Part shown: positions 51,824 to 62,609 of the stretch, piece after piece
Layout: every line of letters starts with the position of its first letter
Numbering within the stretch: position 1 is the first letter of the stretch
Source of the DNA: Fibrobacter sp. UWH6
GTDB taxonomy: Bacteria; Fibrobacterota; Fibrobacteria; Fibrobacterales; Fibrobacteraceae
DNA length: 64,000 nucleotides
Direction: 5' to 3'
Assembly (NCBI RefSeq): GCF_900142465.1
Contig: NZ_FRAX01000003.1
Coordinates: 248,001 to 312,000 of the forward strand
Made by a program: the position numbers and the translations under genes
Notes under the pieces: model-generated
What the model was told of the DNA's origin: nothing
The model's database searches: none
What the model saw: the letters and a program-made list of their open reading frames with translations, nothing else

Positions 51824-53125
51824 ATGAAATTGAATAATCTGAGCAATCCCTCCCGTGTCATCCTGAGCAACCTCGCCCGCGTCATTCTGAGCAAAGCGAA
51901 GAATCCAGTCCTTGCCGCCTCCCTCGTCGCATTTGCAGCCTGTTCCGACTACCTGGAAGACTTCCAGGACAAGTATGACGACGGCAATGCCTTCGCCGAA
52001 ATAACCAGCGACAGCGACAATGGTGACGACGACGGCAGCAGCGACAGCAAACTCAGTTCTTCCAACGGTGGCGACAGCGACGTCGAATCTTCCGACAGCA
52101 CGGACAGTTCCAGTTCCGCTGCCGACCCAGGCAGTTCTTCTTCTGTTGCAGAATCCAGCAGCAGTGCTTTCAAGCCTTGCACCGGCACCGTGATTTATGA
52201 CGCGGAAGAAGATTCGGTGTATAATAGATTTGGTCGAAAATTTATTACGTTTGTCCAAGAGTATGGCTCAGATTGGAGCAAAACAAGTCCAGACGGAGTA
52301 ACAGCATATCTTCCTCAGGAGGGCTTATTAATAATGCCTTTGGTAGAATCCCCAGATACCATGAATATTGAACCTTGGGGTGGATTCTGTGTTGAATACA
52401 CTGGTTCAGGAGTTCTACATGCTAACGTCGTCGATGGGAGTAGCGCTAATAAACCTATTTTGCTTTACAAAGAGATGCCTAATACAAATGGCGAAAAAAG
52501 TTCATTCACATGGTCATGGAATGAAAATGTAGGTTTGATGGAGAAACAAGAAGACAATGGCAGCTCAGAAGGATTTTCAATAGAAAAGGTAGAATCAATC
52601 AATTTTATCAGCTATTTGGGTAATAGTTCTATAACCATTCATAAAATCACAACATTGAAGCCCAATGTTTCTATTGACGAATACTTAAAATGCGACGGCT
52701 CGACTATTACACCACAACATATCGAATACTGGTCGTCCTTAGGTTCTTTTCAGGAAAGAACATATCTAAAACCCGGTAGTGAATACAATATTACTTTATT
52801 AGGAAACAACACTGTTCTTGTGAATCATCCAGACGATCAGGTAAGGTTGGCCCAAGCCAAAGGTTTCTGTATAGAATATTCTTCAGACAAAAATTTCTTG
52901 TTATCATTTCACCGCTACGAGACGAACGGCACACTTACAAATGATAGTGCAAATGTCTCCATTTACAAAGGGGAGAAAAAGATTTCTTACATACTATGGC
53001 AGGATTTAGAAAGAAGATTTGGTAGTTTTTCTTCAACTAATATACATTTACTAACATTCAGTGCTAAACAAACCGAAAACGACACAACAAATATATTAAT
53101 CAGTCGAATGACTCTAATCAATTAA
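51824..53125 (+). CDS. Mosaic lipoprotein with two related GFCxEY domains
   Basis: 433 residues. The N-terminus starts with two copies of a short repeat-derived peptide (RVILSNLARVILSKAKNP), then a lipobox near VAFAAC. A Ser/Asp-rich linker (about 45-115) follows. The C-terminal two thirds contain two related beta-sandwich units, marked by GGFCVEYTGSGVLHANV and KGFCIEYSSDKNFLLSF. From about base 52195 the DNA becomes clearly more AT-rich with different codon choice (more TTA, AAT and ATA), while the first part matches neighbouring genes. This suggests a transferred or replaced C-terminal module. It is cotranscribed with the gene at 50429. Function is unknown; sugar binding is possible. Confidence 0.75.
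   Translation: MKLNNLSNPSRVILSNLARVILSKAKNPVLAASLVAFAACSDYLEDFQDKYDDGNAFAEITSDSDNGDDDGSSDSKLSSSNGGDSDVESSDSTDSSSSAADPGSSSSVAESSSSAFKPCTGTVIYDAEEDSVYNRFGRKFITFVQEYGSDWSKTSPDGVTAYLPQEGLLIMPLVESPDTMNIEPWGGFCVEYTGSGVLHANVVDGSSANKPILLYKEMPNTNGEKSSFTWSWNENVGLMEKQEDNGSSEGFSIEKVESINFISYLGNSSITIHKITTLKPNVSIDEYLKCDGSTITPQHIEYWSSLGSFQERTYLKPGSEYNITLLGNNTVLVNHPDDQVRLAQAKGFCIEYSSDKNFLLSFHRYETNGTLTNDSANVSIYKGEKKISYILWQDLERRFGSFSSTNIHLLTFSAKQTENDTTNILISRMTLIN
51852..51909 (+). repeat. Two short-repeat copies in the lipoprotein signal region
   Basis: CGTGTCATCCTGAGCAA and CGCGTCATTCTGAGCAAA lie in tandem, the second continuing GCGAAGAATCCAG. They code RVILSNLA and RVILSKAKNP before the hydrophobic core of the signal peptide. 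Confidence 0.85.
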
Positions 53126-53190: not shown

Positions 53191-53276
53191 CGATTCACAC
53201 TCATTTCCATCTTCGAGCGTTAATTCCAGTACCGATCAGCATTAAGAAAATGATGGGAATGTATTTACAAAACAGT

Positions 53277-53290
53277 TAGCTTTAACTAAC
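53277..53290. promoter_or_regulatory. TTAG-N6-CTAA box upstream of HD-GYP gene
   Basis: TTAGCTTTAACTAA, arms extended by G and C to GTTAG and CTAAC. It ends 25 bases before the start at 53316 and just before the ribosome binding site GGAAGGAGGG. It has the same arms and spacing as the boxes at 57387, 58815 and 62562-62609. Confidence 0.6.
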
Positions 53291-53315
53291 TTTAAGTCAT
53301 CGGAAGGAGGGTCAC

Positions 53316-53921
53316 ATGTCAGCCTTATCTCAATACCATGACTTAATCTTGTGCGTCGTTTCCGCCCTGGAAGCAAGAGATTCCTACACCAGTTTCCATT
53401 CCTCCCGCGTAGCGGAAATGGTGGAAGCCCTTTGCAGGTTTTTAGGCATCACCGGCGATCAGGAAGAACTATTCCATATTTCGGCACACTTGCATGACGT
53501 TGGGAAAATTGGCATACGCGACGACGTTCTTTTAAAAGCAGGACGATTGAATGATGAAGAATGGGAAATCATGAAATCCCATTCTTTGCAAGGTTACGAA
53601 ATTTTACGGAAGGCAAAGCTATTTGAGAACGTAGCTATCATTGTACGCGGACACCACGAACGCTGGGACGGTAAAGGTTATCCCGATGGACTGTCCGGCG
53701 CAAACATTCCCCTGGGTTCAAGAATTATCGCAATCGCCGATTCCATCGACGCCATGATTTCGGACCGTCCCTACAGAAAGGGCATGGATGTGTCCATCTG
53801 CAGAAGCGAAATAGAAAAGAACGCCGGAATCATGTACGATCCCGACGTGGTTAAAGTCGCTTTGGAAAATTGGGATGATTTAATTAAATCGGGCACTGCC
53901 GTCTGCGCCATGCAGAGTTAA
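53316..53921 (+). CDS. HD-GYP domain phosphodiesterase
   Basis: 201 residues. The HD motif is HLHDVGKIGI and the GYP motif is HHERWDGKGYPDGLSG. Supporting residues include DSIDAMISDRPYRKG. The domain occupies the whole protein; no receiver or sensor domain is attached. HD-GYP proteins hydrolyse cyclic di-GMP. Its strong ribosome binding site (GGAAGGAGGG) follows a TTAG-N6-CTAA box. The stop overlaps the stop of the convergent ATPase gene (53918-53921). Confidence 0.9.
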   Translation: MSALSQYHDLILCVVSALEARDSYTSFHSSRVAEMVEALCRFLGITGDQEELFHISAHLHDVGKIGIRDDVLLKAGRLNDEEWEIMKSHSLQGYEILRKAKLFENVAIIVRGHHERWDGKGYPDGLSGANIPLGSRIIAIADSIDAMISDRPYRKGMDVSICRSEIEKNAGIMYDPDVVKVALENWDDLIKSGTAVCAMQS

Positions 53922-56020
53922 GTTCCAATTTTAGTCATACTTTTGGCACAAATAGCCATGGTAGAAGCATTGTGCAAAAATGCCGACGTGGTGGGAGAAA
54001 GGAATCCGAAGAATCCACCCGCAAGCAAACCCGTATTAAAGGCGACGATGAACTTATAGTTGGATTGGATTCGATCCATCAGCTTTTGGCTCAGAACGCG
54101 AAGCTCAGCCAAGTCTTCCAGATTTTCCCCTCGGAGAGTAACGTCCGCAGTTTCCCGGGCAAAGTCGGAAGCATCGCTCATGGCAACAGAAACGTTTGCC
54201 GCAGCCAAAGCGGGAGCATCGTTAATGCCATCCCCCACCATAATGACGCGTTTGCCTTCTGCTTTCATCCGTTCCACGTAATTGTGTTTGTCTTCGGGCA
54301 AAACTTGTGCGTAGAACGTGTCTATTCCCAGGATTTCAGCGGTACGTTCCGCAGCCTTCTGGCTGTCGCCGGTGATCATGACCACATTCTTGATGCCCGT
54401 TTCTCGCAGGCGTTTGATAGCGACGGCAGCCTCTTCTCGCGGAGGGTCGCTAATGCACAAGACACCAGCCAACTTGCCGCCAATACCCAAGTAGATGACG
54501 GATGCGGCACCGCCCACTTCTTCGATGGTCGCCTGCTGTTGTTCCGTCACGAGAACCTTTTCGTCTTCAATAACAAAATGCCTGCTACCGATGACAGCCC
54601 TCTCACCTCTAAGGGTTGTGGCAATACCATGAGCCACAATGTACTTTACATCCGCATGCTCTTCGGCATGATCGATGCCACGTTCCGCGGCACCATTTAC
54701 AATAGCGCGGGCCATGCTGTGAGGGAAATGTTCCTCGATGCAGGCAGCTATCTTTAAAATTTCTTCTTCGGAACGACCACCAAAGGCAATAATCTTCTGA
54801 AGCTTCGGTTCTGCCTTGGTCAAAGTTCCCGTCTTATCGAAAACGACAGTATCAGCCAAGGCAAATTCCTCAAGATACTTGCCACCCTTTACCGTCATAT
54901 TTCTATCGGCGGCCTCACGCAAGGCTGAAATTACGGAGATAGGCGTAGAAAGTTTAATGGCGCAGGAATAATCCACCATCAAGATGGAAACGGCCTTGGT
55001 AATGTTCCGGGTAAACAGAAGAGTCAAGCCAAATCCCAGGAAACTGAAGGGGACGATGCTGTCAGCCAAATGCTCTGCGCGGCTCTGAATGCCAGCCTTC
55101 AAATCTTCGCTATGGTCAATGAGCTCGATGATTTTCTGAATCTTGGTGTTGTCATTCACCGCACGGACTTCCACGACGATGGAACCTTCGTCTAGGAGGG
55201 TGCCCGCAAATACTGTCTTTCCCGCATTCTTCAACACAGCCTTTGATTCGCCCGTCATGGTGGATTCGTTCACTAAAGCTTCGCCTTCTACAACTGTTCC
55301 ATCCACAGGAATCATGGCACCATCGCGGATTCTCACCAAGTCACCCGGCACCACGTCCTTCAAGTCAACTAAGGTGTCCACGCCATTTTTAACCACCCAG
55401 ACTTTGTCCACTTTTACAGCAAGGCTGCCCGTAAGCGCTGTGCGGGTGCGAGCCTTGGTGTAATCTTCCAATAAGCCAGAAACCCCTAGCAGGAACATAA
55501 CCGTACCTGCGGACTCATAATTTTTCTGGAGCATGGAGGCTCCAATGGCGGCACCATCCAGAACTTCGACGGTCAACTTACCTTCTGCAAGAGTGAATAA
55601 TCCCTTAGCCACATATTTGAGGCCGCGGAAAACCGTTATGGCCGTTCGAATCGGCAAAGGAACAAACCAGCGCATCAGATAGCGGCGAGCTATCATTTTG
55701 CACAGGCTGTTCTGGAAATTGTCATCCAGGGATTGCAACTGGTAATCCGTATCCGGATCCACTTCGGGCAATTCCCTCGGTTTTAAGGCAGTTACAAAAT
55801 CCAGAATCATCTGGCGATTTTCAGCAGTTATTTCTGCAGATTCATCGCTGCCATAGTTCAGCAAAAGGCTTCCATTGGCACTATGGATTACCGCAGACTT
55901 TACGCAAGGAATCCCCACGCAAGCCTTATGGATACGGCCTTCAAACTTAGGTTCAAAGGCGTAAGGACCACAGCGAAAACGGATACGCCCCGGCCGATCG
56001 TATGCGATTCTGAATTTCAT
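53918..56020 (-). CDS. P1B-type metal ATPase lacking the CPC motif
   Basis: 700 residues from the ATG at 56020, preceded by AGGTAAG. The N-terminus is HMA-like in outline but lacks CxxC. P-type motifs are present: TGES, DKTGTLT with D395, and GDGINDAPALAAANVSVAM. In the metal-site helix the usual CPC is replaced by YSCAIKLSTP (Y351, S352, C353, K356). P1B ATPases with SPC or other variants often export Mn, Fe, Co or Zn; the YSC variant and Lys suggest a distinct selectivity, but the metal cannot be named. It follows DUF6110 by 35 bp and is predicted to be coexpressed. Its stop overlaps the stop of the HD-GYP gene. Confidence 0.9.
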   Translation of the reverse strand: MKFRIAYDRPGRIRFRCGPYAFEPKFEGRIHKACVGIPCVKSAVIHSANGSLLLNYGSDESAEITAENRQMILDFVTALKPRELPEVDPDTDYQLQSLDDNFQNSLCKMIARRYLMRWFVPLPIRTAITVFRGLKYVAKGLFTLAEGKLTVEVLDGAAIGASMLQKNYESAGTVMFLLGVSGLLEDYTKARTRTALTGSLAVKVDKVWVVKNGVDTLVDLKDVVPGDLVRIRDGAMIPVDGTVVEGEALVNESTMTGESKAVLKNAGKTVFAGTLLDEGSIVVEVRAVNDNTKIQKIIELIDHSEDLKAGIQSRAEHLADSIVPFSFLGFGLTLLFTRNITKAVSILMVDYSCAIKLSTPISVISALREAADRNMTVKGGKYLEEFALADTVVFDKTGTLTKAEPKLQKIIAFGGRSEEEILKIAACIEEHFPHSMARAIVNGAAERGIDHAEEHADVKYIVAHGIATTLRGERAVIGSRHFVIEDEKVLVTEQQQATIEEVGGAASVIYLGIGGKLAGVLCISDPPREEAAVAIKRLRETGIKNVVMITGDSQKAAERTAEILGIDTFYAQVLPEDKHNYVERMKAEGKRVIMVGDGINDAPALAAANVSVAMSDASDFARETADVTLRGENLEDLAELRVLSQKLMDRIQSNYKFIVAFNTGLLAGGFFGFLSPTTSAFLHNASTMAICAKSMTKIGT

Positions 56021-56055
56021 AAACTTACCTACACAAGATGACTTGACAAGAAAAA

Positions 56056-56283
56056 TTACTTGTCCAAGCCTGCTTCGGACTTGGCGTCGTTGCAAATGTC
56101 GTTAGCTTCGTCTTTCATATCCTGGAAGGCAGCCTTGGCATCGGCAGAGAACTTCATGCCGTGAGCAAGGCCAGTTACAGCAAGTTCACGAGTTTTCTTT
56201 GCCTTGAGCACTTTCTTGGTAATAGCGGAGCCAACAGCACCAGCAACCACCAACCAGAACTTTTCATTTTTGAAGATAGACAT
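56056..56283 (-). CDS. DUF6110-like small protein
   Basis: 75 residues. It starts MSIFKNEKFWLVVAGAVGSAITKKVLKAKKTREL, with a hydrophobic, glycine-containing N-terminal half, then a basic KAKK patch and an acidic helical C-terminus. This matches small proteins often found next to P-type ATPases (DUF6110). Its role is not established; a membrane-associated partner of the ATPase is plausible. It lies 35 bp upstream of the ATPase and follows three 18-bp tandem repeats. Confidence 0.75.
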   Translation of the reverse strand: MSIFKNEKFWLVVAGAVGSAITKKVLKAKKTRELAVTGLAHGMKFSADAKAAFQDMKDEANDICNDAKSEAGLDK

Positions 56284-56311
56284 AGGTTACTCCTTGTTAA
56301 TTTTTAACTAA

Positions 56312-56365
56312 GTTAGACACTCTAATTTTGTTAGCCAATTTAACTTTGTTAGACCAGCTAACTTT
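56312..56365. promoter_or_regulatory. Three 18-bp tandem repeats upstream of DUF6110-ATPase
   Basis: Three successive units each begin GTTAG: GTTAGACACTCTAATTTT (56312-56329), GTTAGCCAATTTAACTTT (56330-56347) and GTTAGACCAGCTAACTTT (56348-56365). Each contains TTAG-N5-[CT]TAA. They fill the gap between flavodoxin and DUF6110 and are a likely regulator-binding array related to, but one base shorter in spacing than, the TTAG-N6-CTAA boxes. Confidence 0.75.
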
Positions 56366-56369
56366 TATT

Positions 56370-56798
56370 TTAAGCCAAAGCTAAAGCCTTGCCCTGTTCC
56401 TGACACTTAGCCTTTGCGTCGTCATCGGGAGCATTTTCAACAGCCAAGGGTTCATCCACAAGGTTCAAGCCCGCGGCAACTGCATCCTCTTTCCAGGGAG
56501 TCATATATTCGCCGCCGCCCCAGCCGTATGAACCGAAAAGAGCCACCTTCTTGCCAGCAAGAGCAGGTTTCATCTTTTCATAAAGAGGCTGAAATTCGCT
56601 GTCTTCCAATTCTTCGGCACCCATGGCAGGGCAACCTAGAGCAAACTTTTCAAACACCGCTGCAGAATCTGCAGAAAACTCGGTGGTATGAAAAATTGAA
56701 ACGTCTCCGCCGACAGCTTGTGCGCCAGCAGCAATTTCCTTCGCCATCATTTCGGTATTTCCGGTTCCGGACCAATAAATAACTGCAATTTTACTCAT
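56370..56798 (-). CDS. Flavodoxin
   Basis: 142 residues. FMN phosphate-loop YWSGTGNTEMMA at the start, then the isoalloxazine-loop region ALGCPAMGAEELED, and FGSYGWGGGEYMTPW. Short-chain flavodoxin size. It replaces ferredoxin under iron limitation in many bacteria. It lies 25 bp downstream of the DUF3793 gene and likely shares its TTAG-N6-CTAA-controlled promoter. Confidence 0.92.
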   Translation of the reverse strand: MSKIAVIYWSGTGNTEMMAKEIAAGAQAVGGDVSIFHTTEFSADSAAVFEKFALGCPAMGAEELEDSEFQPLYEKMKPALAGKKVALFGSYGWGGGEYMTPWKEDAVAAGLNLVDEPLAVENAPDDDAKAKCQEQGKALALA

Positions 56799-56823
56799 TT
56801 TATTTTTCCTTTTTTTTAGTAAA

Positions 56824-57384
56824 TCAACTTGCGACAGTCAAGCGTTCCAAGGAAGCACCCTGTTCAAATCGAGTCCAAAGAATCTCCTTGCATTTTTTAA
56901 AGACCTCAAAAATATGCATGGAATTTTGAACGTCGTTATAAACCTTCCAACAGCCTATTTGCTTGTAATTTCTGCCTCCGTTGGCGATAAAATCCCGCAC
57001 ATCATCCAAGGGATATCCCAGAAAAACCCCTACTTCATGGGGAAAACAAACAGATTTCATCATGCGCTTTCGAAACGATTTTAGCAAGGAATCCACATCG
57101 AATTTCGCATACCCGAATCTTTTCAGGAAATTCTGGATTTCACAAGAACAGGTAAGAGATCTAAGCGCACAATCCCTATAGACATAGATGTAATAACAGC
57201 CTCTTTTCTCTGCAACAACCTTGACAAAAACGCCTTTAGGATTCAAAACCTTATTCCAGCGGGAAAGAAGATTGCATAACAGAAGGCCGTCGGCAATTTC
57301 AAGGCAGAATAAATTCCCCACCTTTACGCCAGCTAGTGTAGGCGCACATTGCCGAACGAGACATGAATCAAACATTCTAGCCAT
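56824..57384 (-). CDS. DUF3793 family protein
   Basis: 186 residues. It has the DUF3793 signatures CAPTLAGVKVGNLF near the start and FPHEVGVFLGYPLDDVRDFI and GCWKVYNDV near the end, with many cysteines. The family is often found beside flavodoxin and Feo genes; its biochemical function is unknown. The operator box at 57387-57400 ends 2 bases before the ATG at 57384, leaving no room for a ribosome binding site. Start at the second ATG (57375) is possible, or the mRNA is leaderless. Confidence 0.85.
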   Translation of the reverse strand: MARMFDSCLVRQCAPTLAGVKVGNLFCLEIADGLLLCNLLSRWNKVLNPKGVFVKVVAEKRGCYYIYVYRDCALRSLTCSCEIQNFLKRFGYAKFDVDSLLKSFRKRMMKSVCFPHEVGVFLGYPLDDVRDFIANGGRNYKQIGCWKVYNDVQNSMHIFEVFKKCKEILWTRFEQGASLERLTVAS

Positions 57385-57386
57385 AA

Positions 57387-57400
57387 TTAGATTAGTCTAA
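57387..57400. promoter_or_regulatory. TTAG-N6-CTAA box upstream of DUF3793
   Basis: TTAGATTAGTCTAA. With flanks it matches the box upstream of the porin gene at 16 of 17 positions (ATTAGAYTAGTCTAACT). It directly precedes the start codon, so binding would block transcription start. Confidence 0.7.
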
Positions 57401-57423
57401 CTTTAATTTTTTGCCAAATATAT

Positions 57424-57495
57424 CCCGCCCGCGGCATTTACCGGGGCGGGAAACCCTCCAGCTCAATGAGGTAACATAACTTTGAGCTGGCGGAG
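57424..57495. terminator. Two GC-rich hairpins after the porin gene
   Basis: CCCGCCC-CGG pairs with CCG-GGGCGGG (57424-57450, one bulge). CCTCC-AGCTCAA pairs with TTGAGCT-GGC-GGAGG (57455-57495). T runs are weak, so they may terminate poorly, or protect mRNA ends. They lie between the porin stop (57512) and the DUF3793 promoter. Confidence 0.55.
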
Positions 57496-57511
57496 GTTTT
57501 ATGGCATTTTC

Positions 57512-58651
57512 TTAAAAGGCGAAGACGGTTTCCACACCAAGCTGCAAGCTAATGTCGTCATTGTCGCCGTAGTCATCACCCAGGGGCTTATTCAGCATAC
57601 CGAAGCCGGTAATTTCAAGACCTTCTACAGGGGCAAAGTAAAGACGGAGGCCTGCAGCAAAGGAACCCAAATCCTCATCGCTATCCAAGGTGTTGCTGTG
57701 GTATTCCAGCGGGATTCCCAAGGTAAGAGCGCCCACCAAATTCAGGCTGGGTTCCACATAGGCAAAGAAGTATTCCGGGATTTCTTCACCGTGATCGATG
57801 GGAGCATCTTCGTCAAAGAGAGCGTAGAATGCGGTTGCCTTGATGTTAAAGCCACCCACTTCAAAAGAGGGTTCCACCAGGAAGGCATGAGTTGCACCCG
57901 GTTCATCTTCACCAAGGGCATCCACATGGAGACCATACACGGCGTGGAATCCGAAGCCGCCAAATTTCAGGTTGGCATCCACACCAGCGTGGAGTTCATT
58001 GTGTTTCGGTTCCTGATAGGACTTGTAATCCACATAGGGGCGCAAAGTGTGTTCACCTAAGCCCAATTCATAAGCCAAGTGAGCGTCATAGGCGACGCCT
58101 ACGCACGTTTCCTCACCATCTTCTTCAGCGCAAACTTGATTATCGTTGTCACCGCGACCAAAGCCGAGGCCAAAAACAAAACCATTAAAGTCAACTTCAA
58201 CTCCTCGAATATCGTGTTCAGCCATACCAGCGGCATTGTCGGCAGGATCGTCGTAGCCGTAGTAGTTCAGGAAAGCTCCCTCAGAAAAAGTCAAGTCACC
58301 GGCCTTGACCACAAAATTTTCGCTCTTGGTGTACTGAACGAATGCGCCATTGTAAATAGCGGCAGGATCAGTAGATTCGCCATCCGCTTCTAACTGCACC
58401 TCTGCAGACCACTGGTCATTAAACTTCACACCCACATTAAAATCAAAAGTAGAGGCATAGTTATGGGACTTTGGACCATCGCTAAAAAGATCGCCGGTGT
58501 AGGCATCGAATTCCACTTCACCAGAGAAAGAGACTTCAGGGCCCTTAGATCCCTCGACTTCGCTCGGGATGACAGTCGATCGCTCTTCGGCGTGGGCGGA
58601 AACTGCGGCGAGGGAAACAGCCATAAGGCCAAATGCTAAACGAGATTTCAT
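57512..58651 (-). CDS. Outer-membrane porin-like beta-barrel
   Basis: 379 residues. A signal peptide (MKSRLAFGLMAVSLAAVSAHA) is followed at once by the repeat-derived VIPSEVEGS, then by regular amphipathic strands rich in acidic loops (DNDNQVCAEEDGEE, DEDAPIDHGEEIPE). The last residue is Phe (VETVFAF), typical for outer-membrane barrels. The acidic loops could favour cations. Translation is set by AAGGAG before the ATG. A near-consensus sigma54 promoter (58705-58720) and a TTAG-N6-CTAA palindrome (58815-58828) lie upstream, unlike the other genes. An uptake channel for metal or small solutes is inferred. Confidence 0.8.
   Translation of the reverse strand: MKSRLAFGLMAVSLAAVSAHAEERSTVIPSEVEGSKGPEVSFSGEVEFDAYTGDLFSDGPKSHNYASTFDFNVGVKFNDQWSAEVQLEADGESTDPAAIYNGAFVQYTKSENFVVKAGDLTFSEGAFLNYYGYDDPADNAAGMAEHDIRGVEVDFNGFVFGLGFGRGDNDNQVCAEEDGEETCVGVAYDAHLAYELGLGEHTLRPYVDYKSYQEPKHNELHAGVDANLKFGGFGFHAVYGLHVDALGEDEPGATHAFLVEPSFEVGGFNIKATAFYALFDEDAPIDHGEEIPEYFFAYVEPSLNLVGALTLGIPLEYHSNTLDSDEDLGSFAAGLRLYFAPVEGLEITGFGMLNKPLGDDYGDNDDISLQLGVETVFAF
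58548..58573 (-). repeat. Short dispersed repeat at the start of the mature porin
   Basis: On the coding strand GTCATCCCGAGCGAAGTC continues with GAGGGATC and codes VIPSEVEGS directly after the signal-peptide region. Confidence 0.8.
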
Positions 58652-58704
58652 TATTACTCCTTAGGGTAGATGTGTGTGATTTAAAAATCTTCTTGCCAAA
58701 TTTT

Positions 58705-58720
58705 TGCAAATATCGTGCCA
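58705..58720 (-). promoter_or_regulatory. Sigma54 (-24/-12) promoter of the porin gene
   Basis: On the minus strand TGGCACGATATTTGCA fits YTGGCACGRNNNTTGCW at every position except the first Y. The expected start near 58694 leaves a leader of about 43 bases before the ATG at 58651 with a good ribosome binding site. The window's own sigma54 activator (17278) is a possible driver. Confidence 0.8.
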
Positions 58721-58814
58721 TTGAAAAACACCTTGTTTTAGGCGATTTTCCTTACATAGCATGAAAAAAGAGAAAACTTGTTTACGAAAGATTGTCGTGT
58801 TTAAAATTAAAATA

Positions 58815-58828
58815 TTAGACTAGTCTAA
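58815..58828. promoter_or_regulatory. Perfect TTAG-N6-CTAA palindrome upstream of the porin
   Basis: TTAGACTAGTCTAA is fully palindromic. It lies about 127 bp upstream of the expected sigma54 start, where enhancer sites for sigma54 activators usually lie, yet its sequence matches the boxes at DUF3793 and dtxR. Confidence 0.7.
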
Positions 58829-58846
58829 CTCAAGGTTTGTAAATTA

Positions 58847-58878
58847 GGGCCGTTGGAGGAGACACGTTCCAACGGCCC
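58847..58878 (-). terminator. Hairpin after feoB
   Basis: GGGCCGTTGGA (58847-58857) pairs perfectly with TCCAACGGCCC (58868-58878). T run is weak on the minus strand. It lies 45 bp past the feoB stop. Confidence 0.65.
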
Positions 58879-58922
58879 CGATTTACGTTTTTGATTTAAT
58901 AGCGATTCTCGATTCTTTTTCG

Positions 58923-61793
58923 CTAGTCTTCAAAACGCTTCTGCTTGTTTGCCTTGATACCGAAGAGCTTCAGGAAGATTCCAGTACCGATCAGAACAAT
59001 GACTGCGGTAACGATCCAGTGGGTTTGTCCGCCAACAGGTATCTGGTAGAGCAGCACTGCAATGGCCCAGGCAAGAAGCGTTTGAACCGTAGCCATAAGG
59101 ATTCCAAGACCCAGACCGATTTCACGAACCACAACGCCCATGGCAGCAAGGCAAGGTACATAGAGCAGGATAAATACCAGGAAGGCAAACACCTGCCAGT
59201 TGAATCCATCGTGACCACCGTTGTGGAAGTAGGAGCGGAGGTTTGCATAGATGTCGGCGGTTTCGCTCAGGTCGCCTTCTTCAAGAGCCCCCATGGCATC
59301 TTCATCCAATTCGATACCGGCAGCGGCAAGCTTTGCAAATACAGCTTCGCGAGTCTTTTCGTCCTCCTCTTCTTCGCCAAAGGTTTCAATGGCAGCAAAT
59401 TCTTCGCAAGTGAGAGACTTAGATTCAAGAATCTTGTCCAAAGTTTCCTTCTTAAGTTCAGCAGCAGCCTGGCCTTCCAATTCCCCAGAGGTACCCAAGA
59501 TGTCGGTAAGAGATCCAACCACTTCGCTGAGGTTTGCAGGGATAGAAGAAACTGCTTCAATGAATGCAGCCTTGAGATCAGGAGCACCATCTTCCTCTTC
59601 TTCGGCGGGGCATTCATCGACACCGGCGATAAGAGGCTTTTCTTCTTCGGCGGGAGCTTCTGCAATCGCAGCGACTTCGGCGGGAGCTTCTGCAACTGCG
59701 GCGGTTTCGGCAGGTTCCGCACTGGATTCTTCGCTTGCGCTCAGAATGACGCTAGGAGAGTCGCTCGGAATGACAGCGGAGGATTCGCTCGGAATGACAC
59801 GGGATGCGGTTTCGCCTTCGCTCAGAATGACGTTGGAGTCAGCAGAAGCAGCAGTGCTGTCGGTAACAGCCACACTTTCTCCTTCTGGTGCCGGGGCGGT
59901 TTCAACAGCCGGGGCTTCCTCAGCGACAATTTCTGCGGCTTCAGAAGGTGCAGCGGGTTCAGCCTGAGGGCCTTCCACCGCTTCACTCTTCGGGGCCATG
60001 GCGTAGAGGGAGTTCATGGTACCGATAACGGCTTCCTTAGCCAACAATCCGGTAAAGAGGGAAACGGATGCGGGCCAGTTGTCTTCTTCAACGCCAAAGG
60101 GTTCAAATACAGGCGTAATGGTCTTACCCACAGAAGAAAGCAAACTGTTTTCGGAATCTGCGTTACCGGCGGTAAACTTGCCATCCACATAGCCAAAGGC
60201 ATTGAGGAAGCCAAGAACGGCCACAGCGATAGTAATCACCTTACCGGCGCGAAGCACGTAGTCCTTCAGCTTGAGCCAGGAATGAATCAGCAAGGACTTG
60301 ATCTTCGGCAAATGATAGTTAGGAAGTTCCATCACGAAATTGCTGGACTGACCCATGAACAAGGATTTCTTCAGGAACAGACCGTAAATGATGGCGAACA
60401 CAATACCCACCAGGTAAAGCAGGAACACGATGGTTCCAGCCTGCTTTCCGAAGAAGGCTGCAGCGAACAGAGCGTACACCGGCAAGCGGGCGCCACAGCT
60501 CATGAAAGGCACAAGGAATATGGTGAGGAAGCGCTCACGCTTACTTTCAAGAACGCGGGAACCCATAATGCCGGGAACGCCACAGCCAAAGCCCACCATC
60601 ATAGGGACAAATGCACGACCGGGGAGCCCAAGGAATCGCATAAAGCGATCCGCCACGAAGGCGGCACGAGCCATGTAGCCAGAGTCTTCCAGGAAGGTCA
60701 GGCACAGGAACATGAAGAAGATTACCGGAATGAAGGTAGACACGGTCTGGATACCGGCGCCAACACCATTGGCAAGAACTGCAGAAACCCAGGCGGGCGC
60801 ACCAATCACATCGCTAAGCAAATAGCCCAGGCCATCCACAAAAATGGCACCGAAAGAAATATCAAAGAAATCAATAAAGGCGCTACCGATGGTCACGGCC
60901 ACCCAGAACACCAGGTACATCACCAAAAGGAAGATGGGAAGAGAAAGCCAACGATTCAAAAGGATTGCATCCAACTTATCAGAATGCGTTTTCTTGGCGC
61001 GATCACCAACGATTACCGTACCGGCGATTTCGTGGGCCATGCTGTAGCGGGCATCGGCCATGACGAATTCAGATTCTTCGCCAAGCTTTGCAGTAACTTC
61101 ATCCCTGTTCAAGGCAACACCGGCAGCAGCAAACTTGTCTGCATAGCTGTTACTGTTACCCAGGTACATCAAGGAAACCCAACGGGGTTCTGCGTCTAGC
61201 AACTTTGCCACAGGAGCGACCAGAGATTCCAATTCCTTCACCACATTCTCCACCTTGTCACCATAGGTGAGACCGGCAGGGATGGCAATAGGGCTAGAGA
61301 TAACATGGGCCATCTGGCTAATGAAATTGGTAATGCTCTTTTCGTTCACCGCAGAAAGAGGAATGGCGGGAACCCCGAAACGCTTGGAGAGTGCTTCAAG
61401 ATCAATATGGAGACCGCGCTGTTCAGCGATATCCATCATGTTCACGGCGATGACCATAGGCTGCTGCATATCCACCAGCTGGGTGGTCAGGAACATGTTA
61501 CGTTCAATGTTCGTGGCATCGACGATGTTTACAATCAAATCGGCTTCGCGAGTGAGGAGGAAATCGACAGCGGCGCGTTCGTCCTCGGAGTTTGCGAAAA
61601 TGGCGTAAGTACCCGGAAGGTCCACCACACGGATGTGGCGAGCGCCCAGGTCGAAGAAGCCTTCCTTCTTTTCTACAGTGACGCCAGGCCAGTTGCCTAC
61701 GCTTTGGCGCGAGCCAGTCAAGGCATTAAATAAAGCAGTCTTACCGCAGTTCGGGTTACCTGCAATAGCGATTGTAAACGGTTTTGGTGACAT
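58923..61793 (-). CDS. feoB: FeoB, ferrous iron transporter with a large acidic insertion
   Basis: 956 residues; E. coli FeoB has 773. The G domain has G1 GNPNCGKT (12-19), G3 DLPGTY and G4 NMMD. The membrane part has the two gate motifs (SCGARLPVYALF and GLLAKEAVIGTMNSLYAM). After M599 there is an extra stretch (about 600-860), rich in Ala/Glu/Pro/Ser, that contains four short-repeat-derived peptides (VILSEG, RVIPSE, VIPSDS, VILSASEES). A charged helical part then leads to the last membrane helices. FeoB imports Fe2+ driven by its GTPase. It follows feoA by 37 bp in an operon with dtxR. The insertion should lie in a loop between membrane helices. Confidence 0.95.
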   Translation of the reverse strand: MSPKPFTIAIAGNPNCGKTALFNALTGSRQSVGNWPGVTVEKKEGFFDLGARHIRVVDLPGTYAIFANSEDERAAVDFLLTREADLIVNIVDATNIERNMFLTTQLVDMQQPMVIAVNMMDIAEQRGLHIDLEALSKRFGVPAIPLSAVNEKSITNFISQMAHVISSPIAIPAGLTYGDKVENVVKELESLVAPVAKLLDAEPRWVSLMYLGNSNSYADKFAAAGVALNRDEVTAKLGEESEFVMADARYSMAHEIAGTVIVGDRAKKTHSDKLDAILLNRWLSLPIFLLVMYLVFWVAVTIGSAFIDFFDISFGAIFVDGLGYLLSDVIGAPAWVSAVLANGVGAGIQTVSTFIPVIFFMFLCLTFLEDSGYMARAAFVADRFMRFLGLPGRAFVPMMVGFGCGVPGIMGSRVLESKRERFLTIFLVPFMSCGARLPVYALFAAAFFGKQAGTIVFLLYLVGIVFAIIYGLFLKKSLFMGQSSNFVMELPNYHLPKIKSLLIHSWLKLKDYVLRAGKVITIAVAVLGFLNAFGYVDGKFTAGNADSENSLLSSVGKTITPVFEPFGVEEDNWPASVSLFTGLLAKEAVIGTMNSLYAMAPKSEAVEGPQAEPAAPSEAAEIVAEEAPAVETAPAPEGESVAVTDSTAASADSNVILSEGETASRVIPSESSAVIPSDSPSVILSASEESSAEPAETAAVAEAPAEVAAIAEAPAEEEKPLIAGVDECPAEEEEDGAPDLKAAFIEAVSSIPANLSEVVGSLTDILGTSGELEGQAAAELKKETLDKILESKSLTCEEFAAIETFGEEEEDEKTREAVFAKLAAAGIELDEDAMGALEEGDLSETADIYANLRSYFHNGGHDGFNWQVFAFLVFILLYVPCLAAMGVVVREIGLGLGILMATVQTLLAWAIAVLLYQIPVGGQTHWIVTAVIVLIGTGIFLKLFGIKANKQKRFED
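59722..59831 (-). repeat. Four short-repeat copies inside feoB
   Basis: TCGCTCRGAATGAC-type words (first copy GCGCTCAGAATGAC) end at 59750, 59774, 59798 and 59831. On the coding strand they read GTCATTCTGAGC or GTCATTCCGAGC. They match the repeats at 51852-51909 and 58548-58573. Confidence 0.85.
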
Positions 61794-61830
61794 GATATTC
61801 TCTTTTCTTTAGAATCCCGCGGATCGGGTA

Positions 61831-62115
61831 TTAGATTCTCTTCAGGTTCAACACATTGCCTTCTTCCCTACGGAGGGAAAGGCGGTAGTTCAAGACACTC
61901 ACTTCAATGGGATCCCCCAGAGGAGCAATCTGCATCACTTCCAAAGTGACGCCGCGGACAAGGCCCATGGAAAGGAGCTTGGACTTATAACGGGCATCGC
62001 CTTCGTTGTAGCCAACAATTTCCACCTTGTCGCCTTTCTTAAGTTCAGAGAATTTCGGCTCGACGTTCCACTTCTTGGTTTTACCGTCGCAGCCACAGCC
62101 GCAATTACAGCTCAT
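61831..62115 (-). CDS. feoA: FeoA with a Cys-rich N-terminus
   Basis: 94 residues. The FeoA SH3-like fold spans about 20-94 (LKKGDKVEIVGYNEGD, LLSMGLVRGVTLEVMQIAPLGDPIEV, NYRLSLRREEGNVL). The first residues, MSCNCGCGCDG, hold four cysteines that could bind metal and are not part of a minimal FeoA. It overlaps the dtxR stop as ATGA, so translation is coupled. Confidence 0.93.
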   Translation of the reverse strand: MSCNCGCGCDGKTKKWNVEPKFSELKKGDKVEIVGYNEGDARYKSKLLSMGLVRGVTLEVMQIAPLGDPIEVSVLNYRLSLRREEGNVLNLKRI

Positions 62116-62546
62116 TTTTTGTTACCCTTTGCAACCTTCAACTTCTTTACAGTTGTGATTACAGTTTCCGAAGGCTTCATGAAGTCTTCAATTTTAGACA
62201 GAGTCTCTGCCGACAGGATATGTTCCATACAGCAAGCGTCCTTATCAGCAATAGCTTCAGAGACACCGAGACGAATTAAAAAACCTTTCAAAAGAATGTG
62301 ACGATTCAGCACATCGGCAGCAGCCTTGCGACCTGCATCCGTCAATTCAATACCGCTATAAGGTTCCTGGGTGACCAAGCCAAGCTTTTTCAATTCCAGG
62401 ATGGCCTTTGCCACAGAAGGCATTTTAACCTGCAGGGCAGCGGCGATGTCTTTTACGCGAGCGATGCCATGAGCCAGGCGCAGCATGTGCACCATTTCTA
62501 GATAATCCTCTAGGCTCTGGCTGAGCTTTACGTGTTCGTTTTCCAT
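62112..62546 (-). CDS. DtxR/MntR-family metal-dependent regulator
   Basis: 144 residues, the short form without an SH3-like domain, as in MntR. The winged HTH is at about 5-70 (IARVKDIAAALQVKMPSVAKAILELKKLGLV). The metal-binding dimerisation region has D14 in the LEDYLE helix (as in MntR), H83, and DKDACCMEH with C105, E108 and H109. Cys at 105 is DtxR/IdeR-like, where MntR has Glu, so the ligand set is mixed. It heads the operon dtxR-feoA-feoB. Three TTAG-N6-CTAA-type boxes lie directly upstream, so autoregulation and iron (or manganese) response are expected. The metal cannot be fixed from sequence. Confidence 0.92.
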   Translation of the reverse strand: MENEHVKLSQSLEDYLEMVHMLRLAHGIARVKDIAAALQVKMPSVAKAILELKKLGLVTQEPYSGIELTDAGRKAAADVLNRHILLKGFLIRLGVSEAIADKDACCMEHILSAETLSKIEDFMKPSETVITTVKKLKVAKGNKK

Positions 62547-62561
62547 TGTTACCTCTTTTTG

Positions 62562-62609
62562 TTAGCCAGAACTAAATTTAGTAAGCCTAGGCTAATTAGT
62601 CAAGGCTAA
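62562..62609. promoter_or_regulatory. Three adjacent TTAG-N6-CTAA boxes before dtxR-feoAB
   Basis: TTAGCCAGAACTAA (62562-62575), TAAGCCTAGGCTAA (62582-62595, one mismatch, inner 10 bp AGCCTAGGCT palindromic) and TTAGTCAAGGCTAA (62596-62609). They cover the region 16-63 bp upstream of the ATG at 62546, where the promoter must lie. Confidence 0.75.

Follow-up and report, generated by a model that had tools for sequence, protein, structure and literature searches.

A predicted DtxR-type iron-sparing regulon with TTAG-N6-CTAA operators in Fibrobacter

The 64-kb stretch of the Fibrobacter sp. UWH6 genome analysed here (contig NZ_FRAX01000003.1, positions 248,001 to 312,000; "the window", by whose positions features are given) carries a cluster of genes preceded by copies of a 14-bp box, TTAG-N6-CTAA (N6 box). 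The minus strand encodes a DtxR/MntR-family regulator of 144 amino acids (62112..62546; Pfam and ligand alignment), which we propose as the owner of the boxes, followed by feoA (61831..62115, 94 amino acids, Pfam) and feoB (58923..61793, 956 amino acids, Pfam and NCBIfam). Further along this strand lie the gene of a porin-like outer-membrane protein of 379 amino acids with a signal peptide (57512..58651) and an operon encoding a DUF3793 protein (56824..57384, 186 amino acids) and, as its second gene, a short-chain flavodoxin (56370..56798, 142 amino acids). A stand-alone HD-GYP protein of 201 amino acids, in which the HDVGK and HHERWDGKGYP motifs are present, is encoded on the plus strand (53316..53921). 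Pfam and NCBIfam confirmed the calls that a first-pass annotation of this DNA had made for HD-GYP, DUF3793, flavodoxin, FeoA, FeoB, the DtxR-type regulator and a P1B-type ATPase treated below; the "porin" matches neither Pfam nor NCBIfam, and its identity is putative, by inference only. Short repeats (TCGCTCAGAATGAC / TCGCTCGGAATGAC and similar) lie inside coding sequence at 59700-59840, 58560-58590 and near 51840, and are read as VILSE/VIPSE in an insertion of FeoB and in the N-terminus of the porin-like protein.

Exact N6 boxes occur at five places in the window and nowhere else in it: before the HD-GYP gene (TTAGCTTTAACTAA, 53276..53289), before DUF3793 (TTAGATTAGTCTAA, 57387..57400), before the porin-like gene at a distance of 164 bp (TTAGACTAGTCTAA, a perfect palindrome over its 14 bp, 58815..58828) and twice ahead of dtxR, where one is closest to the gene (TTAGCCAGAACTAA, 62562..62575) and the other is the most conserved site of that promoter (TTAGTCAAGGCTAA, 62596..62609). 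An imperfect box with one mismatch (TAAGCCTAGGCTAA, 62582..62595) directly abuts the latter. These matches bear out the positions given in the first-pass annotation, whose first coordinate was off by one (53276, not 53277), and it was also right that two of the boxes, those at 57387 and 58815, share 16 of 17 bases (ATTAGAYTAGTCTAACT). It had further named, as a finding that would speak against a regulon, an equal frequency of boxes in composition-matched random intergenic DNA, and this comparison turned out otherwise: the 964 bp of cluster intergenic DNA hold five boxes against a mean of 0.049 per dinucleotide-preserving shuffle, and none of 5000 shuffles reached five. A shuffled 64-kb window is expected to contain 0.56 sites, and TTAG at a spacing of 6 ranked top among all 256 inverted four-letter words at 13 spacings (0 to 12) in the cluster intergenic DNA. 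Of 14 exact boxes in the 3.92-Mb genome (50 contigs), five fall within 9.3 kb (Poisson P ~4e-11, given their frequency outside the cluster), while the remaining nine are mostly within open reading frames. All five cluster boxes obey a tighter core, TTAGNYNNRNCTAA, which occurs six times genome-wide; as these five served to define the pattern, the independent result is the sixth site, ahead of a ribE-ribBA-ribH riboflavin operon, rather than the first five.

Conservation of the boxes extends through the genus. At least one exact N6 box, and often two to five, was found in the dtxR promoter at 30 of 30 loci read, a set that includes our own genome and one locus from another family of the order, and in the aligned promoters a strongly conserved stretch, led by TTAGCCTTGACTAATTAG, runs across three sites. 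The box ahead of the porin-like gene is kept in nearly all species read, and that upstream of DUF3793-flavodoxin in 12/12 Fibrobacter loci (one scan). Orthologues of the HD-GYP gene exist only in our genome (G000) and in G036 and G025, with an identical box in all three. In the window this box is flanked by the hexamers TTTACA (53264-53269) and TAACTT (53287-53292) at a 17-base spacing, and TTTACA with TAACTT or TAATTT recurs at this spacing across the three genomes. The predicted link of HD-GYP to the regulon is real but narrow, being confined to three related genomes.

The regulator is the sole PF01325 protein of the genome and has both PF01325 (Fe_dep_repress) and PF02742 (Fe_dep_repr_C) above cut-off; a third, SH3-like domain was not found in the Pfam scan, which returned these two domains only. 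Its closest solved structures are MntR of E. coli and B. subtilis, and the best NCBIfam models are also MntR. The metal ligands D14, E17, H83, C105, E108 and H109 are invariant among 31 sequences. In all 31 a Cys replaces MntR Glu99, so that the pair of bridging ligands typical of MntR, Glu99/Glu102, is incomplete; compared with the Met10 and Cys102 ligands of DtxR/IdeR, the Cys is present and the Met is replaced by Asp. The B. subtilis MntR sequence used for the ligand alignment is consistent with the PDB alignment. The first-pass annotation had matched the boxes to a DtxR/IdeR consensus, given there as TTAGGTTAGSCTAACCTAA. Its 14-bp inner part does agree, whereas the 19-bp double-dimer operator is not matched by the Fibrobacter boxes, which are 14 bp long with AT-rich flanks and have no outer extension, and the protein resembles MntR more closely than IdeR. 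Genomes with a DtxR hit contain 3-12 tighter-core boxes each, compared to 0-1 in five genomes without one, and reversed-pattern controls showed no such difference. Several Fibrobacter species (L061/L062, L063, L064, L098, L059) have two dtxR genes, mostly in two dtxR-feoAB loci that often lie close together.

The riboflavin operon had escaped the first-pass annotation, as had the recurrence of the box in other phyla described below. Its box, GTTAGTTAAATCTAAC, lies on another contig (C6:153907) about 100 bp upstream of ribE, which is followed by ribBA and ribH. It is found in 7/7 genomes of the own clade (RibE identity at least 97%) at offsets of -112 to -266 and with differing cores, and in 0/23 other Fibrobacter. 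Further candidate targets appear in relatives. Five Fibrobacter genomes (L165, L171, L179, L100, L096) have an N6 box in the interval that separates nuoB from a divergently oriented GGDEF-EAL gene; it is nearer to nuoB and could possibly be a second link from the regulator to the turnover of cyclic di-GMP (c-di-GMP). A further locus with boxes combines a second feoAB with genes for an ABC transporter and a TonB-dependent receptor, and an MMPL/LolA/outer-membrane locus that adjoins an AraC-type gene has two or three of them at intervals of 15-19 bp. Boxes also precede gapA, a malic enzyme gene and a phosphoglycerate-mutase-like gene (two genomes each), as well as ApbE (L057, L059, L173), which in L057 and L059 adjoins NusG_II and Hpre_diP_synt_I genes. 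The set of ApbE, NusG_II and Hpre_diP_synt_I is reminiscent of loci for flavin-based extracellular electron transfer. Neither nuoB nor ApbE was retained as a member in our own genome: the nuoB gene there has no box, and a search for an ApbE relative came back empty, which is weak evidence of absence.

When genomes were scanned with a DUF3793 alignment, Clostridia, Ruminococcus, Terrisporobacter and a spirochaete proved to have relatives. N6 boxes lie upstream in 7/9 of these non-Fibrobacter loci, at a density of 15 sites in 4.05 kb versus 5 in 115 kb; of the latter, three precede feoA or feoB. A flavodoxin follows DUF3793 in most of the loci, and a short DtxR-family protein bearing a Cys-x-x-Glu-His motif is present in each of the eight such genomes that were checked, two of which (L208, L214) have a box ahead of the regulator gene. 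The DUF3793 protein itself has a confident predicted fold (pLDDT 89, pTM 0.87) in a model built from 21 sequences, an earlier one from 7 sequences having been poor, and a fold search with this model found no significant PDB match. Its invariant motifs are P-H-E and G-C-W-K-V-Y-N (window 56824-57384; L197-L205), and in the openly licensed literature only one paper naming DUF3793 was found, which is unrelated. The 57387 box ends two bases ahead of the annotated DUF3793 start codon (57385-57400), which suggests either a leaderless transcript or a start located further in. In the gap towards the porin-like gene (57401-57511) a GC-rich hairpin accompanies conserved sequence, TGCCATA..AACCTC...GTTACCTCA..., which in some relatives lies beyond the box, within the leader of DUF3793; a known RNA element was considered for this gap and rejected, as Rfam gave no match.

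Between the HD-GYP and flavodoxin genes, a DUF1490-like small protein (56056-56283; a weak hit, below the Pfam cut-off) and the P1B-type ATPase (53918 to about 56020) form a pair on the minus strand (53918..56283). Proteins with DUF1490 are partners of P-type metal exporters in Mycobacterium (PacL, PMC9374683). The first-pass annotation had counted the ATPase among the targets, which was not borne out. No N6 box was found at the promoter of this pair in the window or in any relative read; instead, three repeats of the type GTTAG-N5-CTAAC (56312..56362, at 56312, 56330 and 56348), exactly 18 bp apart and conserved in relatives, precede it. They have the same arms as the N6 box at a spacing one base shorter, and apparently form a separate operator. 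Membership of the ATPase through its own promoter was rejected on this basis, and read-through from DUF3793-flavodoxin is possible. The N5 repeats were also rejected as a genome-wide regulon of their own, because the other exact sites read lie within open reading frames or before unrelated genes.

We consider it very probable that the DtxR/MntR-family repressor at 62112-62546 has the N6 boxes as its operators and that the genes behind them form an iron-sparing regulon, kept off by DtxR in its metal-loaded state. This is supported by the Fibrobacter-wide conservation, the co-occurrence with the regulator, the boxes at its own promoter and the DUF3793 boxes in Firmicutes and a spirochaete. With the ATPase removed, the regulon of the first-pass annotation stands for Fe2+ import, DUF3793-flavodoxin, the putative outer-membrane protein and HD-GYP. 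At sufficient cytosolic Fe(II), metal-loaded dimers would bind TTAG-N-Y-N2-R-N-CTAA sites at the promoters and shut off dtxR-feoAB, the porin-like gene, DUF3793-flavodoxin, the stand-alone HD-GYP and ribE-ribBA-ribH. When iron falls the boxes would be vacated, Fe2+ would be imported, and flavin mononucleotide (FMN) and flavodoxin would be made, the latter able to stand in for iron-sulphur ferredoxin; in this clade HD-GYP would be raised as well and c-di-GMP turnover altered. Enrichment and conservation of the boxes, their gene associations, the conserved ligands and the co-occurrence with the regulator are direct observations. Several points weigh against so complete a picture. We infer the binding, repression as the sign of control, iron as the co-repressor and any effect on c-di-GMP. 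A sigma-70 consensus scan found promoters at no more than shuffle level, which is why we place a promoter by conservation, and at HD-GYP only. The box of that gene, known only in three close relatives, is the weakest link. The five genomes without DtxR are metagenome-assembled genomes of 77-82% completeness, and the co-occurrence may in part reflect contigs that are missing. Finally, the metal site is a hybrid, and in PgMntR of Porphyromonas gingivalis a site of this kind accepts either Fe(II) or Mn(II) (PMC4805248).

Other readings of the same boxes have to be weighed against this regulon. The low GC content of the cluster intergenic DNA (35%) might let them arise by chance, yet the shuffles, the Poisson test at the genomic rate, and conservation both genus-wide and across phyla exclude such an origin for practical purposes. 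A Fur-family protein might own them instead, since such genes are under Fur in many bacteria and the genome does encode one. However, this sole Fur-family gene, on contig C28 of our genome (L066 1408-2600), adjoins a rubrerythrin-like gene and has a PerR-type sequence, TTGTAATCATTACAA, upstream, which suggests a PerR-type regulator; neither an N5 nor an N6 box was found at its promoter or neighbours, and the N6 boxes sit instead at dtxR promoters and dwindle where DtxR was not found. We have rejected Fur/PerR as the owner on these grounds and regard it as very unlikely, if less so than chance.

The owner being the DtxR-type protein, it could still be a manganese sensor in the manner of MntR, with FeoB importing Mn2+ and the regulon serving manganese homeostasis. 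This would agree with the MntR structures and models that lie closest to it and with D14 and E17, which are MntR-type ligands, and PgMntR binds Mn(II) tightly with the same kind of site (PMC4805248). On the other hand, all 31 sequences share with iron-sensing DtxR the Cys in place of MntR Glu99, and iron is indicated by the flavodoxin and riboflavin genes as well as, among relatives, by nuoB and the TonB-receptor/feoAB locus. The Cys is important for Fe(II) in PgMntR, which binds Mn(II) and Fe(II) (PMC4805248). We regard manganese sensing as rather improbable: Fe(II) is the likely metal as judged from ligands and gene content, with Mn(II) also possible. About as improbable is that the HD-GYP box alone is fortuitous, or inherited and functionless, the other boxes being real. 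The gene is carried by three related genomes only, and the surrounding promoter block is conserved together with the box; but the box matches exactly, is flanked by promoter-like hexamers that are conserved, and belongs to the tighter-core sites, of which the 3.9 Mb hold only six.

We judge the predicted DtxR regulon to be a real one. It is of a kind already known, with unusual content, and apparently without precedent in its phylum; in the openly licensed literature, nothing was found on a DtxR regulon of Fibrobacter. Fibrobacter, a major rumen cellulose degrader, gains a testable iron regulon, in which iron status is predicted to feed into flavin supply and, in some species (three for HD-GYP), into c-di-GMP turnover. 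The uncharacterised DUF3793 family, present in several phyla, acquires a first physiological context, namely metal starvation beside flavodoxin. It is tempting to go further, albeit with somewhat less than even confidence, and to propose a cross-phylum iron-sparing module in which, across Fibrobacter, Clostridia, Ruminococcus and a spirochaete, a short Cys-type DtxR acts through TTAG-N6-CTAA operators on feoAB and DUF3793-flavodoxin. DUF3793 would then be a new iron-starvation partner of flavodoxin, and in Fibrobacter riboflavin synthesis and c-di-GMP enzymes would also have been recruited, the latter through the HD-GYP box here and, in relatives, through the box in the interval between nuoB and the GGDEF-EAL gene.

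Known systems resemble the one proposed here in part. DtxR/IdeR of Actinobacteria belong to the same regulator family, have iron-import targets and share the inner TTAG-N6-CTAA (sites of C. diphtheriae DtxR are listed in PMC524172), but they differ in a third SH3-like domain, an outer CCTAA extension of the operator and other targets, compared to 144 amino acids, two domains and a 14-bp palindrome in Fibrobacter. MntR of B. subtilis and E. coli has the same two-domain size, is closest in sequence and aligns in the ligands D, E, H, E and H, whereas the Fibrobacter regulator has Cys for Glu99, a DtxR-like box and an iron-type gene content. PgMntR shares the hybrid Asp/Cys/Glu/His site and the link to a FeoB-type transporter; it carries twin C-terminal FeoA domains, which the Fibrobacter regulator lacks, FeoA being a separate gene there (PMC4805248). 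In Clostridioides difficile iron limitation induces flavodoxin and riboflavin genes (PMC10913485), the same pair of responses as predicted here, although the regulator is Fur in that organism and would be of DtxR type in ours (PMC6311696, PMC10913485). In Vibrio cholerae, an iron regulator likewise acts directly on c-di-GMP genes, where Fur, of another family, controls other genes (PMC7641913) and the predicted target in Fibrobacter is an HD-GYP protein.

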